A stretch of 64,000 bases of DNA from the NCBI RefSeq assembly GCF_016921195.1, contig NZ_JAFGYF010000002.1:62001-126000 (forward strand), written 5' to 3'. Below are positions 42,695-56,623 of this stretch, one piece after another (within the stretch, counting starts at the first letter, position 1; every line of letters begins with the position of its first letter). Both the position numbers and the translations under genes were made by a program. Source of the stretch: Cellulosimicrobium cellulans. Lineage in GTDB: Bacteria > Actinomycetota > Actinomycetes > Actinomycetales > Cellulomonadaceae. Under the pieces are notes generated by a model, which saw nothing but the letters and a program-made list of their open reading frames with translations, was not told the origin of the DNA and did no database searches.

Positions 42695-44849
42695 GTGCCG
42701 GTCCAGCCCTCCCCGTCCCTGCCTGACACCGATCACCGTGATCACCGTGATCACCGTGATCACCCCGATCCCGCGAAGCACGCCGTCGCGGAGGAGCAGC
42801 AGCATCTCGACGCCGCGCTCGTGCGACGCACCCAGCTCCTCGCGGAGCTCGACGCGCAGCTCGCCGTGCCGACCGACCCGGACGGTCCCGGCGCCGAGGA
42901 CGTCGTCGAGCGCTCCCGGCGCGCGGGGCTGCGCCGTCGGCGCGCCGAGCTCGAGCGTGCGGAGAGCGGGCTCGTGTTCGGCCGCGTCGACACGGTCGAG
43001 GGCGTGACGCGCCACATCGGGCGGGTGGGCATCGCCGCGTCCGACGACGACGCGGACCCGCTCGTGCTCGACTGGCGTGCCGACGGCGCCCGCGCCTTCT
43101 ACACCGCGACGGCGCGCGAGCCGCAGGGCCTCGCGCGGCGCCGGCACGTACGGACGGCGGGGGACCTGGTCACCGGCGTGGACGACGAGCCGCTCGACGG
43201 CTCGGCGACCGGGCCGGAGGGCGAGGGCGGCCTCGTCGGCGAGGGTGCGCTGCTCGCCGCGCTGTCGGAGCGCCGGACCGGCCGCATGGGCACCGCGGTC
43301 GCGACCCTCCAGGTCGAGCAGGACGCGATCGTGCGCGCCCCGGCCGAGCAGACGCTCGTCGTGCAGGGCGGCCCGGGGACGGGCAAGACCGTCGTCGCGC
43401 TGCACCGCGTCGCGTACCTGCTGTTCACCCACCCGCACCTGGCCCAGCGCGGCGTGCTCCTGCTCGGACCGTCGACGCGCTTCCTCGAGTACGTGGCCCA
43501 GGTGCTGCCCGCGCTCGGCGAGACGGCCGTCGTGTCGGCCACGTGCGACACGCTCGTCCCCGGCGTCGTGCCGGAGCGTGACGAGCCGCGGGACGTGGCC
43601 GAGCTCAAGGGCCGCGCGCTGTGGCAGGACGTCGTCGCCCGGTACGTCGACTCCCTCGTCCCGGACGCGCGGGCGCTGACGGTGCGGCTCGACGGCGAAC
43701 CGCTCACGCTCGGGACGGACCGGGTCGCCCAGGACCTGCGGGCCGCCCGGGCGGGCGGCCGCAGCATGCTGGCCGCGCGGCGCCGGGCCGTGGACCTGCT
43801 GCTCGACGCGCTCGTCGACGAGGCCGCGGCCCGTTACGCCGAGATGCTCGAACGCGTCGAGGAGGGGTTCGAGGACGTGCTCGGGCGAGCTGACCGACGA
43901 CGATCTCGAGCGGCTCCGCGGCGAGCTCGCGCGCGAGGCGGGGTTCACGGCCGCCGTCGACGCCTGGTGGCCGGTCGCGGACGCGCGCACGGCGCTCGCG
44001 GACCTGCTGGGCGACGCCGCGCTGCTCGCACGCCACGCGCCCGAGCTCTCGGCCTCGGAGGTCCGCCGGGTGACGGGCGAGCCCGCCGCGCTCGCGCCGA
44101 GCGACGTCCCGCTCCTCGACGCGCTCGCCGACGCGCTGGGGGCTCCGGACGCCCTCGGTGAGCAGGGCGAGTTCCTCGCGCAGCGCGCGGCGACTCGCCG
44201 CGACTGGGTCTACGGGCACGTCGTGGTCGACGAGGCGCAGGAGCTCTCACCCATGCAGTGGCACATGGTGCTGCGCCGCTGCCCGACCCGGTCGGTGACC
44301 GCCGTCGGGGACGTCGACCAGACCGAGGCGCCGCACCGCCACACCGACTGGGCGGACGTCGTCGGCCCGGTCTTCGGCGAACGCTGGCACCGCGCGGACC
44401 TGACGATCTGCTACCGCACGCCGCGCGAGGTCATGGAGGTCGTCGGGCCGGTGCTGCGCGCGGCGGGCAGCCGCAACGCGCCGCCCCGCGCCGTGCGCGA
44501 GACCGGCGTGACGCCGCGCGACGTCGTCCTGCCCGCCGGAACCCGGGACGCGGCGCTGGGCGCGGCGGTGGCCGCGGAGGTCGCGCGCCTCGCCGAGCGG
44601 TACGACGGCGGTTCCGTCGGCGTCGTCGCGCCGCGCGACCGGCTGGAGCGCCTGGGGGCCACCGTGAGCGGGGTCCCCGTCCTCAGCACCTCGGAAGCGA
44701 AGGGGCTGGAGTGGGACGCGGTGGTCGTCGTCGACCCGGACGGCATCGCGGCGGAGCCGCGCGGGTGGAACGGGCTGTACGTCGCGATGACCCGGTGCAC
44801 GCAGGAGCTCGCGCGCGTCGCCGTCGACGCGGCGACCGGCGCCGTCTGA
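42695..44849 (+). pseudogene. HelD-like ATPase interrupted by a one-base frameshift
   Basis: From GTG 42695 (GAAGAGG upstream) the frame encodes a HelD/HelR-type superfamily-1 ATPase: an N-terminal helical region with DHR repeats, VFGRVDTVEG and a DWRADG motif, Walker A VVQGGPGTGKTVVALHR near 225. It breaks near 43882-43887; the rest, with GELTDDDLERLRGELA, VVVDEAQELSPMQW, CYRTPREV and GLYVAMTR, lies in another frame to 44849. Total length is 718 codons plus one base; dropping one G of the GGG at 43883-43885 restores a 717-residue protein. It is a paralogue of the HelR gene at 54.4 kb but lacks an upstream rifamycin element. Confidence 0.75.
42731..42764 (+). repeat. Short tandem repeat of a 9-base unit
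   Basis: GATCACCGT occurs three times and is followed by a partial fourth GATCACC. It encodes the DHRDHRDHRDH run at residues 13-23 of the HelD-like protein. The units are identical at DNA level, so copy number may vary between strains by slippage; because nine is a multiple of three, the frame would be preserved. Confidence 0.85.
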
Positions 44850-53127: not shown

Positions 53128-54120
53128 GTGAGCCAGACCGTCGTCGCACCCCGCACCCGAGCCCGTCGCCCCGTCGCCCGGGCGACCGCGCCGTGGCGCT
53201 TCTTCGACGTCGAGGTGGCGCGCGTCGAGCAGGTCTCGCCGAGCTTCCGCCGGTTCACGTTCACCGGCCCCGAGCTCGACCTCTTCGGGGACCCGGGCCT
53301 CGACGTGCGGATCAAGTTCGTGCTCCCCGCGCCCGACGGCGGCTACGAGCACCTCGTGCGCGACGCCGACGCCTGGTACGCCGCGTGGCGCGACCAGCCC
53401 GAGGAGCGCCGGAACCCGCTGCGCACCTACACGACCGTCGCGGTGCGCCCCGAGGCGCGCGAGGTCGACGTGGACGTCGTGCTGCACGGCGACGCCGGTC
53501 CCGCCTCGCGCTGGGCGCTCGCCGCCGAGGTCGGCACGCCGCTCGTCCTGCTCGGCCCGGACGCGACGTTCGACGGCGCCGCCGGCGGCATCGAGTTCCG
53601 TCCGCCGACCCGCCCGCACGCGCTCCTGCTCGCGGGCGACGAGACGGCGCTGCCTGCGATCGCCGCGATCTGCGAGGACCTGCCCGCCGACGCGTGGGGC
53701 GAGGTCTACGTCGAGGTGCCGCACGTGGGCGACGCGCGCGACCTCGTCACGCCGCCCGGGGTGCGCGTGACCTTCCTGGCCCGCGACGACGTCCCCGGCG
53801 GGGCGCACGACGCCCACGGCGCGCGTCTGGTGCCCGCCGTCAAGGAGGCGGCCGAGCGCATCCTCGGAGCGGGTGTCCTCGGGACCGACCCGCCCGCCCA
53901 GTGCCGCACCGCCGAGGACCTCGAGGACATCGACGTCGACGCGTCGATCCTCTGGGAGGTCCCCGGGCTGCTCGAGGAGGACACCGTCCTCTACGCGTGG
54001 CTCGCGGGCGAGGCGAGCGCGATCAAGACGCTGCGCCGCCACCTCGTCGCCGACCTCGGCGTCGACCGCCGCGCCGTCGCGTTCATGGGCTACTGGCGCG
54101 AGGGTCGCGCCGAGAGCTGA
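53128..54120 (+). CDS. Siderophore-interacting protein (ferric-siderophore reductase, ViuB-like)
   Basis: A 330-residue flavoprotein: FAD-binding domain (about 25-155) with [14 protein letters not shown] as the flavin-binding motif, then a NAD(P)H-binding domain (about 165-330) with [16 protein letters not shown]. It releases iron from imported ferric siderophores by reduction in the cytoplasm. Its own iron box and position after the transporter genes support this. An insertion of about 45 residues (about 225-270) lies in the second domain. Confidence 0.94.
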
Positions 54121-54154
54121 CGCGTCCACGCGATTCCGCCGAGACGCGAGAAGC

Positions 54155-54182
54155 GGCCCCGCACCGTCCTCGGTGCGGGGCC
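54155..54182. terminator. Terminator after the siderophore-interacting protein gene
   Basis: A perfect 12-base stem (54155-54166 with 54171-54182) with a TCCT loop is followed by TGCTCTTCTG, weakly T-rich. It separates the iron-regulated gene from HelR. Confidence 0.85.
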
Positions 54183-54208
54183 TGCTCTTCTGCCGGTGCG
54201 AAGGGAAA

Positions 54209-54229
54209 AGGGAGGCCGACGGCCTCCCT
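54209..54229. repeat. Second hairpin in the HelR upstream region
   Basis: AGGGAGGCC (54209-54217) pairs with GGCCTCCCT (54221-54229) across GAC; outer purine and pyrimidine tracts (54201-54208 and 54230-54238) extend the pairing imperfectly. It lies 12 bases before the HelR -10 hexamer. It may be a second terminator or part of the control of HelR. Confidence 0.6.
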
Positions 54230-54241
54230 CCCTTTCCAAGG

Positions 54242-54247
54242 TATAGC
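54242..54247 (+). promoter_or_regulatory. -10 element of the HelR gene
   Basis: TATAGC fits the actinobacterial -10 consensus and lies five bases upstream of the rifamycin-type element. The transcript would start within that element and have a leader of about 100 bases. No good -35 hexamer is visible at 17-19 bases upstream. Confidence 0.6.
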
Positions 54248-54252
54248 GCACG

Positions 54253-54275
54253 GGGGGTCTTGCGGCAAGGCCCCC
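54253..54275 (+). promoter_or_regulatory. Rifamycin-associated element (RAE)-like inverted repeat
   Basis: GGGGGTCTTGC and GCAAGGCCCCC form 11-base arms around a central G, with one mismatch. This closely resembles the RAE inverted repeat described upstream of rifamycin-resistance genes and of helR in actinobacteria, as I recall it. It lies between the TATAGC hexamer and the HelR gene, so HelR is probably rifamycin-inducible. Confidence 0.82.
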
Positions 54276-54352
54276 TCCGGGGCGCAGAATCTCCGCTCGT
54301 GCGTGGGTCGTCGTGGCCCGCGCCGTCCCCGCTGGACCTCGGACCGGAGCTG

Positions 54353-56623
54353 ATGACGTTGCCCGACGCCCCCGTGACCGCCGACCCGACCACCGACCCG
54401 ACCGCTGATGCGGATCCGTGGCCCGCGCCGTTCTTCGCCCTGCCCGCCCGGCTGGCCGCGAAGGCCGACCCGGGGCTCGTCGATGCCGACGAGCGGCACT
54501 TCGCCGCCATCGCGGCGAGCCTCGAGCGCTCCGTCGCAGACCTCGCGCGGCGCCTCGACGCGGCGCGCCGGGCGCCGGGCGGGAGCGGGACCGAGGCGCT
54601 CGAGCGCGACCAGGAGATCCACCGGCTCAGCGGGCGGCTGCGGCTGCTCCAGCGCTACGGCGTCGACCTGTGCCTGGGCCGCATGACGTTCGCCGACGGG
54701 TCCGACCCCGTGTACGTCGGACGCGTGGGCCTCACGGACACGGCCGAGGAGCGGCTGCTCGTCGACTGGCGCTCGCCCGTCGCGGAGCCGTACTTCGCCG
54801 CGACCCCCGCGCACCCGCTCGGTCTCGCGGCGCGGCGCCGGTACCGGTGGACGCGCGGTCGCGTCACGGACTACTGGGACGAGGAGCTCGTGCCCGACGG
54901 CGCCGGGTCGAGCGCGGCGCTCGACGACCAGTCGGCGTTCGTCGCGAGCCTCGGCGCGAGCAGGTCCCCGCGGATGCGCGACGTGCTCGGCACGATCCAG
55001 GCCGACCAGGACGCGATCGTCCGGGCGGGCTCGCGTGGCGCGCTCGTCGTGGACGGCGGCCCCGGGACGGGCAAGACCGTCGTGGCGCTGCACCGCGCCG
55101 CCTACCTGCTCTACGCCGACCCGCACGTGGGTGGCGGGCACGGGGGAGTGCTCGTCGTCGGGCCCAGCCGTCCCTACCTCGCGTACGTGGCCGACGTGCT
55201 GCCCGGTCTCGGCGAGGAGGGCGTGCAGACGTGCACGCTGCGCGACCTCGTCCCCGAGGGCGCGACGGCGCGCGAGGAGGCCGACCCCGAGGTGGCCCGG
55301 CTCAAGGCGTCCGTCGAGCTCGTCGCCGCGATCGAACCGGCCGTGCGGTTCTCCGAGCGCCCGCCCACCGAGGGCATGGAGGTCGAGACGCCGTGGGTGG
55401 ACGTCTGGCTCTCCACCGCCGACTGGGCGGAGGCGTTCGAGTCCGTGGACCCGGGCACCCCGCACAACGAGGCGCGCGACGAGGTGTGGGGCGCGCTCGT
55501 GGAGATCCTGGTGGACAAGGCGTGCGGGGGAGCCGCGGAGGACGCCGTGGACCTCGACGCCGACGACGTGCGCCGTGCCCTGCGGAGCCACCGCGCGCTC
55601 GGCGCCGCGTTCGACCGCGCGTGGCCCCTCGTCGAGCCGACCGACCTCGTGGCCGACCTGTGGTCCGTGCCCGCCTACCTGCGCCTGTGCGCGCCGTCGC
55701 TCACGCCCGAGCAGGTGCGCATGCTCCAGCGCGAGGATGCGCACGCCTGGACGACGGCGGACCTGCCGCTGCTCGACGCCGCGCGCCGTCGCCTCGGCGA
55801 CCCGGAGGCGTCGCGCCGGCGCCGGCGCAACGAGGCCGCCGCGGCGTCGGAGCGAGCCCGCATGGACGACGTCGTCGACCACCTCGTCGCGACCGACGAC
55901 AGCGAGCTCGGGGTCATGCAGATGCTGCGGGGGCAGGACCTGCGCGACGCGCTCGTCGACGACGGTGCGCTCGTCGTCGCGACGCCCGACCGCCTCGCGG
56001 GGCCGTTCGCGCACGTCGTCGTGGACGAGGCGCAGGAGCTCACCGACGCCGAGTGGCAGATGGTGCTGAGCCGCTGCCCCTCGCGCAGCGTCACGGTCGT
56101 CGGGGACCGGGCCCAGGCGCGTCACGGGTTCGCGGAGGGCTGGCGCGAGCGGCTCGCGCGCGTGGGCTTCGACCGGGTCGCGGAGGCGTCGCTGAGCGTC
56201 AACTACCGCACGCCGCGGGAGATCATGGCCGAGGCGGAGCCCGTCGTCCGCGCCGCGCTCCCGGACGCGAACGTCCCGACGTCGGTGCGCAGCACGGGCG
56301 TGCCCGTCGCCCGCGGGGCGGTCGCGGACCTCGACAAGATCCTCGACGCGTGGCTCGCCGAGCACGCGGACGGCACGGCGTGCGTGATCGGCGCCGCCGG
56401 GCCGTCCGAGGCGTCCGGCGGAGGACCGGACGGCGGGGTCGGCGACGAGGGCGAGAGGACCACGCGGGTGCGGTGGCTCACGCCCGAGACGGCGAAGGGC
56501 CTCGAGTTCGACCTCGTCGTGCTCGTCGAGCCGCACGCGTTCGGCGACGGCGTCCAGGGGGCCGTGGACCGCTACGTCGCGATGACGCGCGCGACGCAGC
56601 GGCTCGTCGTGCTCGAGGGCTGA
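54353..56623 (+). CDS. helR: HelR, RNA polymerase recycling ATPase (HelD family)
   Basis: A 756-residue superfamily-1 ATPase. The N-terminal coiled region (about 25-115) with LERDQEIHRLSGRL would enter the polymerase channels; then VDWRSPVAEPYFAATPAHP and GRVTDYWDEE, characteristic of actinobacterial HelR. Walker A is GGPGTGKTVVALHRAAYLL near 235, DEAQEL near 557, YRTPREIM near 622 and YVAMTRATQRL near the end. HelR removes stalled or rifamycin-bound RNA polymerase from DNA and confers rifamycin tolerance. ATG 54353 has GGAG upstream; GTG 54299 is an in-frame alternative. The RAE-like site supports HelR over plain HelD. Confidence 0.93.
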   Translation: MTLPDAPVTADPTTDPTADADPWPAPFFALPARLAAKADPGLVDADERHFAAIAASLERSVADLARRLDAARRAPGGSGTEALERDQEIHRLSGRLRLLQRYGVDLCLGRMTFADGSDPVYVGRVGLTDTAEERLLVDWRSPVAEPYFAATPAHPLGLAARRRYRWTRGRVTDYWDEELVPDGAGSSAALDDQSAFVASLGASRSPRMRDVLGTIQADQDAIVRAGSRGALVVDGGPGTGKTVVALHRAAYLLYADPHVGGGHGGVLVVGPSRPYLAYVADVLPGLGEEGVQTCTLRDLVPEGATAREEADPEVARLKASVELVAAIEPAVRFSERPPTEGMEVETPWVDVWLSTADWAEAFESVDPGTPHNEARDEVWGALVEILVDKACGGAAEDAVDLDADDVRRALRSHRALGAAFDRAWPLVEPTDLVADLWSVPAYLRLCAPSLTPEQVRMLQREDAHAWTTADLPLLDAARRRLGDPEASRRRRRNEAAAASERARMDDVVDHLVATDDSELGVMQMLRGQDLRDALVDDGALVVATPDRLAGPFAHVVVDEAQELTDAEWQMVLSRCPSRSVTVVGDRAQARHGFAEGWRERLARVGFDRVAEASLSVNYRTPREIMAEAEPVVRAALPDANVPTSVRSTGVPVARGAVADLDKILDAWLAEHADGTACVIGAAGPSEASGGGPDGGVGDEGERTTRVRWLTPETAKGLEFDLVVLVEPHAFGDGVQGAVDRYVAMTRATQRLVVLEG

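Follow-up and report, generated by a model that had tools for sequence, protein, structure and literature searches.

We analyzed a stretch of 64,000 nucleotides from Cellulosimicrobium cellulans (contig NZ_JAFGYF010000002.1, positions 62,001 to 126,000 of the forward strand). We refer to this whole stretch as the window, and all coordinates are window positions. The window contains helR, which encodes a Class II HelD-type RNA polymerase recycling ATPase, and just upstream of it a palindrome that belongs to the rifamycin-associated elements (RAEs). HelR behind an RAE is an already known arrangement.

Upstream of helR lies a siderophore-uptake operon that encodes a FhuD-like binding protein, FhuB (over its cut-off), and, as judged from Pfam, a siderophore-interacting protein. 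The inverted repeat with a T-rich tail between this operon and the RAE (Table 1) is likely to be the operon's terminator. Downstream of helR, on the other strand, are genes for a protein with an aminoacyl-tRNA editing domain and for a PEBP-family protein.

Table 1. Features of the helR locus, in window coordinates. The promoter boxes and the antisense RNA are predictions.
Feature	Position	Strand	Basis
Inverted repeat with T-rich tail	54155..54182	+	12-bp perfect arms; not called by the stock scanner
Putative antisense RNA of about 30 nt (terminator-like hairpin with U-rich tail)	54200..54231	-	10-bp stem, -19.3 kcal/mol, z -2.71
Putative antisense -10, TACCTT (family TANGTT), 19-bp spacer	54238..54243	-	A2 and T6 in 124 of 124 HelR sites; T1 in 122 of 124
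RAE palindrome, 11+1+11, one mismatched pair; 19-mer core at 54255-54273	54253..54275		Pattern and palindrome search
Putative sense -35, TTGCGG, inside the RAE	54260..54265	+	All 120 aligned HelR sites have TTG here (partly circular, see text)
Putative antisense -35, TTGCCG, inside the RAE, overlapping the sense -35	54263..54268	-	CAA on the plus strand in 120 of 120 (partly circular, see text)
Putative sense -10, CAGAAT, 19-bp spacer	54285..54290	+	A2 and T6 in 124 of 124; at the T1 place, C in 113 and G in 11
helR, 756 amino acids	54353..56623	+	NF041254; match to 6yxu chain H

HelR and the palindrome upstream of its gene

The protein scored 1203.5 bits against the NCBIfam model for HelR (NF041254, curated cut-off of 750), which is far above its scores against other HelD models, and it matched HelD from Mycobacterium smegmatis (6yxu chain H) along its whole length (E = 3.8e-104). 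The initial annotation had claimed that the protein carries HelR-specific motifs. Indeed, it has the three sequence features that define HelR or Class II HelD proteins: the DWR motif (at residue 138), a Walker A motif (GGPGTGKT, at residue 235), and the PCh-loop region, which aligns to that of M. smegmatis HelD. A DEAQE box and NYRT are also present. We compared the protein to the 30 best-scoring matches of our HelR protein search, to which it is 67-73% identical overall. The PCh-loop region is alike in all 31 proteins, the one from the window included; within the alignment, Ser517 of the window protein corresponds to Asp485 of M. smegmatis HelD, and this position is Asp in 74% of the 31. That the 756-amino-acid protein is HelR is strongly supported. 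The best start for the gene is the ATG at 54353, which is preceded by GGAG, and not position 54242.

It had also been predicted that the protein confers tolerance by displacing drug-bound RNA polymerase. This is a part of what HelR does, but a review favors the idea that resistance comes mainly from stripping rifampicin off of RNA polymerase, rather than polymerase off of DNA (PMC10719064). Class II HelD proteins characteristically free RNA polymerase of rifampicin, and cells that lose them become more sensitive. What HelR would do in C. cellulans, and that rifamycins would induce its gene there, we infer from published work on relatives.

Positions 54253-54275 read GGGGGTCTTGC-G-GCAAGGCCCCC. 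The initial annotation described an inverted repeat with 11-base arms that is nearly identical to the RAE and proposed aligning it to known elements; we found that the RAE pattern GGGGNCTTGCGGCAAGNCCCC matches this site without a mismatch, while just 0.05 matches with up to three mismatches are expected by chance in a 64-kb window. The symmetry alone is not rare, as 13 other 11+1+11 near-palindromes (with at most one mismatch) lie within the window, but the RAE sequence is rare. When the whole 4.58-Mb genome was scanned, the window site was the only one with zero or one mismatch to the pattern, so this is not a repeat that occurs at many unrelated promoters. An arms-free composite pattern (described below), with at most one mismatch allowed, also matched the window site alone in this genome, and a reversed control gave no matches. 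RAEs are 19-bp palindromes upstream of rifamycin-defense genes, and the core of this palindrome is one, with no mismatches to the search pattern. The identification of the repeat as an RAE is strongly supported.

RAEs of relatives suggest what this one does. SVEN_6029 of Streptomyces venezuelae and MAB_3189c of Mycobacterium abscessus combine the same protein family with an upstream RAE (PMC10719064, PMC8655204); helR of S. venezuelae is an RAE hit, and deletion of half of the RAE abolishes the response of helD/helR to rifampicin in M. abscessus (PMC10719064). More generally, Class II HelD needs the RAE in order to be induced by rifampicin, and the RAE overlaps the -35 of the proximal promoter (promoter 2), as it would here (PMC10719064).

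A second HelD-like gene lies on the plus strand of the window at 42776-44813. It matches NF041254 in pieces (208.9, 38.6, and 125.2 bits) that are split over two reading frames. The frame appears to break between about 43834 and 43896, which may be due to a sequencing error or may mark a pseudogene. Tandem GTGATCACC-type repeats are found near its start (42731-42764). Elsewhere in the genome, there is a gene for a rifampin ADP-ribosyltransferase (Arr; contig C1:17118-17480, locus L313; 157.9 bits, cut-off 130). The composite scan of the genome found no RAE-like composite upstream of the Arr gene, and the profile search found no rifampin monooxygenase over the cut-off in the genome.

RAE sites in other genomes

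To avoid choosing sites by their RAE, we searched 394 genomes of the class for HelR. The protein was over the cut-off in 139 genomes, from 47 of 122 genera, which gave 139 upstream regions (the window and 138 others chosen by protein). We called an RAE at a score of at least 11.5, and 124 of the 139 regions contained one; the best score in 417 shuffled sequences was 11.4, so none of those reached the RAE level. For the other 15 HelR genes, no RAE was detectable in the 601-1500 nt upstream that were searched. In 114 of the 124 cases the RAE is at most 300 nt from the start of the HelR profile match, and in three it lies at 640, 1393, and 1432 nt and may serve another gene. HelD proteins of the NF041465 type had matches in 54 genomes, and 28 of the 30 loci examined had an RAE. 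(Among these, the RAE lies 104 nt upstream at L298 and 1340 nt upstream at L285.) HelD paralogs below the HelR_2 cut-off had an RAE in 0 of 10 cases. M. smegmatis itself was not recognizable among the sampled loci, for which the best identity to a stretch of its HelD was 76%.

We also scanned contigs with GGNNCTTGCGGCAAGNNCC, which gave at least 118 stretches with at least 119 sites. Among the matches listed, the open reading frames (ORFs) that adjoin the sites form five main clusters: HelR (32 sites), rifampin monooxygenase-like or Rox-like (29), rifamycin phosphotransferase or Rph-like (9), rifampin ADP-ribosyltransferase or Arr-like (7), and Rgt-like glycosyltransferase (6). For these counts, one dubious ORF at L113 was dropped, and the shared site of L060 was assigned to its Rgt-like gene. 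Each cluster was identified from one or two representatives; one rifampin monooxygenase-like representative was over the cut-off and one was not, and the Rgt-like representative was below it. A gene set of this kind is what the RAE is known for.

Some of the sites are in unexpected records. Four RAE-pattern sites that adjoin rifamycin genes (L093, L110, L115, and L120) are in records labeled as Chloroflexi (two of them), Xanthomonadaceae, and Aerophototrophica, and these may be mis-binned contigs or cases of transfer. Of the four fixed letters that are described below, L120 has only three, and its antisense T1 is missing too. At L026, the RAE at 116-134 has all four fixed letters and is followed, after 94 nt, by an ORF of 522 amino acids that falls outside of the five clusters and is related to an ORF of L100. 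The 522-amino-acid ORF is possibly a further rifamycin-responsive gene.

Mirror-symmetric -10-like boxes and a terminator-like antisense hairpin

We aligned the RAE sites on the 19-mer, with positions 0-18 and the dyad at 9, and found that conservation extends well outside of it. All 124 HelR RAE sites have A at -17, T at -13, A at 31, and T at 35. These four fixed letters are at -26, -22, +22, and +26 from the dyad, which is mirror-symmetric, and they fit A2 and T6 of a minus-strand hexamer from -12 to -17 and of a plus-strand hexamer from 30 to 35. Within the RAE, a TTG hexamer lies at a distance of 19 bp from each of these -10-like hexamers, and the core can thus be read as a pair of -35 boxes that overlap back to back. 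The two -10 boxes are centered 47 bp apart at all 124 sites. All four letters are also present at each of the first 26 RAE sites of NF041465 HelD genes, which were the ones used for this count. By cluster, among the matches listed, they are found at 31 of 32 HelR, 28 of 29 Rox-like, 9 of 9 Rph-like, 6 of 7 Arr-like, and 6 of 6 Rgt-like sites, or 80 of 83 cluster sites. Just 5 of the 36 other listed pattern sites have them, all in records from Actinomycetota, and at four of these five the gene is cut off, as the sense side meets the end of the stretch 90-183 bases away; the fifth is L026, with its 522-amino-acid ORF. The spacing varies at two loci: the antisense box of L089 is one base nearer to the RAE, and the sense box of L011 is one base further from it.

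Complementation turns A2 into T6 and vice versa, so that these two letters fit a box on either strand, and the direction rests on T1, the -35 boxes, and the hairpin evidence. If the boxes are read as divergent, then the upstream box matches TATAAT at 3.25 of 6 positions and the downstream box at 3.88, versus 2.34 and 2.95 if they are read as convergent. With the divergent reading, TTG is at the right distance in all 120 aligned HelR sites, although this count (and that for CAA) is partly circular because the inner TTG and CAA are among the features by which the RAE search picks its sites. The lack of TTG at the outer positions is free of this circularity: a -35 for the convergent reading would require TTG there, and it is present in at most 3 and 5 of 120 sites. 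The other peaks of TTG are at -28 on the plus strand (15 of 120, within the hairpin) and, on the minus strand, inside the -10 boxes (85 and 29 of 120). We therefore rejected a convergent pair of promoters like that of Bacillus subtilis, which would have no outer -35 and poorer -10 matches. As for T1, the antisense -10 nearly always has it, while the sense -10 has it at 0 of 124 sites (Table 1) and, in a separate arms-free sample, at 2 of 71. The sequence CGCTATANGTT is found exactly in 49 of 120 aligned HelR antisense boxes.

In the initial annotation, the -10 of helR was placed just before the RAE. We rejected this box (TATAGC, 54242-54247) because it lacks T6 and a -35. It overlaps the antisense -10, and in relatives the upstream box fits the minus-strand hexamer (here TACCTT, from 54243 to 54238); the sense -10 fits CAGAAT after the RAE. 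Thus the "-10" before the RAE is probably the -10 of the other strand, and the helR mRNA is predicted to start near 54297. The stock scanner, whose rules are stricter, called neither a promoter nor a terminator in 54100-54400.

When the sequence is read in the antisense direction from near -24, a hairpin with a U-rich stretch behind it is found at 58 of 116 HelR sites, versus in 18 of 116 shuffled sequences. If the same hairpin DNA is read in the sense direction, this is found at 1 of 116 sites (shuffled, 5), and on the mirror side a hairpin is found at 1 of 116 (shuffled, 2). RAE sites of genes other than HelR (the 50 of 51 sites with a full flank) also have the antisense hairpin, in 31 of 50 cases versus 6 for shuffled sequences, with 0 of 50 in the sense direction (shuffled, 1). 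The commonest start of the hairpin is -24, which is the predicted antisense +1 (24 of 58). All 58 of the HelR hairpins and all 31 of the others differ in sequence, so it is the structure that recurs. At the other half of the HelR sites (58 of 116), our hairpin criteria identify no terminator.

We also searched 295 genomes for an arms-free pattern, which comprises the two -10 boxes (with the antisense T1), TTG, and CAA, and it matched in 178 of them. Among the matches listed, we examined 71, picked mostly from GC-rich genomes, and 65 of these carry C4/G14 and at least 5 of the 6 RAE arm letters. The listed matches in small AT-rich genomes look by eye like chance, and the reversed control also matches there. 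The geometry and the RAE arms co-occur in this sample, so the arms need an explanation of their own.

At one locus, L060 from Pseudonocardia xinjiangensis, the RAE (2661-2679) lies between divergent genes. Its sense side faces an Rgt-like gene at a distance of 58 nt, and its antisense side faces a HelR ORF at 215 nt. This is a natural case of an antisense arm that points at a gene.

How the RAE might sense rifamycins

On balance, we favor the explanation that helR is driven by the sense arm, the weaker one, of a symmetric pair of promoters built back to back on the RAE, and that the antisense arm acts together with an additional factor or effect that tips the balance. The RAE core (CTTGCnGCAAG) would be two overlapping -35 boxes, and each orientation of RNA polymerase would use one of these along with a -10 that is 19 bp away. 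As both arms would need the same -35 DNA, just one polymerase could be accommodated at a time. The sense arm, without T1, would drive helR, while transcripts from the antisense arm would run into their own terminator right away and be useless RNAs of about 30 nt. With rifamycin present, the balance would tip to the sense arm and HelR would be made, which would then take the drug off of RNA polymerase. The antisense arm may be transcribed and may have a role in sensing. T1 by itself argues that the antisense arm might be the stronger of the two, whereas the sense box is not the weaker by its overall match to TATAAT (3.88 versus 3.25 of 6).

This tipping would require more than competition between promoters. 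In a model of plain mutual exclusion that was run with 200,000 random parameter sets, rifampicin never raised the sense output (its ratio was always below 1), and algebra by hand agrees that mutual exclusion alone cannot raise it. We therefore rejected simple promoter competition as the whole sensing mechanism; what would be needed is either a factor bound to the conserved GGG/CCC arms or an effect of antisense transcription that persists, and of these the factor seems somewhat more likely. A finding that counts against the symmetric layout is that promoter 1 of M. smegmatis, a mapped sense promoter that starts about 20 bp upstream of the RAE (PMC10719064), is not explained by it.

A bolder form of the proposal is that the RAE is not primarily an operator: the palindrome would be overlapping -35 boxes, and a sacrificial antisense arm, with its self-terminating RNA of about 30 nt, would report rifamycin-arrested polymerase, across the HelR, Rox, Rph, Arr, and Rgt genes of Actinomycetes. 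We offer this form tentatively, and it is more apt to be wrong than right.

The published view, which we think is unlikely though not to be dismissed, is that the RAE is the operator for a rifamycin-responsive transcription factor and overlaps the -35 of a single downstream sense promoter, so that the conserved letters upstream would be a site for the factor or an ordinary sense promoter. A possible factor is mentioned in PMC10719064 and PMC12802891, and an operator would account for the conservation of the GGG/CCC arms, which -35 boxes do not need. The 15 mismatches in the RAE core, found in 13 of 116 sites, are all at inner positions 8 and 10 and never in TTG or CAA; this is in keeping with overlapping -35 boxes, although an operator whose center is loose could vary in the same way. 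However, an operator does not account for the mirror-placed A2 and T6 letters with equal 19-bp spacers or for the antisense hairpins, and if the upstream box is read in the sense direction then it has mostly C at T1 and no -35. (In MerR-type operators, the dyad lies within the spacer. The 19-bp spacers suggested an operator of this type, but we rejected it because the dyad of the RAE lies on the -35.)

It is rather improbable that the sensor needs no factor at all, with antisense transcription silencing the sense arm until a rifamycin-arrested polymerase at the antisense arm lifts the silencing. The convergent pair of promoters at helD of B. subtilis (PMC12802891) and the two-promoter rifampicin switch at rpoB of M. 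smegmatis (PMC6181997) are precedents for this, and T1 is in the antisense box only. But pure mutual exclusion never induced in our parameter scan, the geometry here is divergent instead of convergent, and when the B. subtilis promoters were brought 17 bp closer, for polymerases to clash, induction was abolished (PMC12802891). We give very little credence to control at the level of RNA, in which the RAE would be a hairpin in the 5' leader of a transcript from an upstream sense promoter. The RAE does fold well as RNA (-16.9 kcal/mol, z -3.22), and M. smegmatis has a sense start upstream of the RAE (PMC10719064). However, the sense -10 is downstream of the RAE, so mRNA from it would not contain the RAE, and a leader hairpin leaves the fixed spacing to both -10 boxes unexplained. 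Furthermore, no known RNA family was identified in the window, as its two Rfam matches were both far below the gathering score. An Rfam search of 16 RAE loci found one cobalamin riboswitch, in the upstream region of one HelR gene (L211:351-548, 100.4 bits).

The back-to-back pair that we favor resembles several known systems in part. At helD of B. subtilis, a sense promoter for the HelD gene is paired with an opposing promoter, as we propose here, and the gene is rifampicin-inducible; the antisense promoter there is the stronger one, and the two are convergent, with facing starts that are 39 bp apart (PMC12802891). In the window, the antisense promoter would not be downstream and facing the sense promoter; instead, the two would be back to back with a common -35 region and inferred starts that face away from each other about 66 bp apart. 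Bidirectional promoters of Escherichia coli likewise have pseudo-symmetric DNA on which polymerase sits in two mutually exclusive orientations and competes, but there the -10 boxes overlap and the starts are mostly 18 bp apart, or else 10 or 23 bp (PMC12825309). In the window it is the -35 boxes that would overlap, and neither the overlapping -10 boxes nor starts about 10, 18, or 23 bp apart are found. At rpoB-rpoC of M. smegmatis, rifampicin moves output between two promoters, and the motif of the strong promoter II, CGCTATNGTT, is similar to the antisense box CGCTATANGTT with one extra base; those promoters are in tandem, and the available text of that paper does not mention the RAE (PMC6181997).

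For known HelR/RAE systems, the available text of PMC10719064 and PMC8655204 does not describe an antisense -10, mirror symmetry, or a short terminated antisense unit. In the HelD and RAE literature, as far as its text was available and with the primary RAE papers aside, we found no description of the symmetric pair, the antisense -10, or the short terminated antisense unit, and a literature search for antisense or divergent promoters at rifampicin resistance genes of Streptomyces found none. The symmetric layout could already be described in the primary RAE literature.

A paper from January 2026 still presented the mechanism of rifamycin sensing by the RAE as unresolved (PMC12802891). The layout that we propose gives it a concrete and testable anatomy, in which the antisense start and the short RNA are specified and each -10 box can be removed separately, and the arms-free pattern provides a means of finding further rifamycin-responsive genes. 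If the proposal is true, then the actinobacterial system would be connected to the dual-promoter alarm of Bacillus: the two would solve one problem in different ways.
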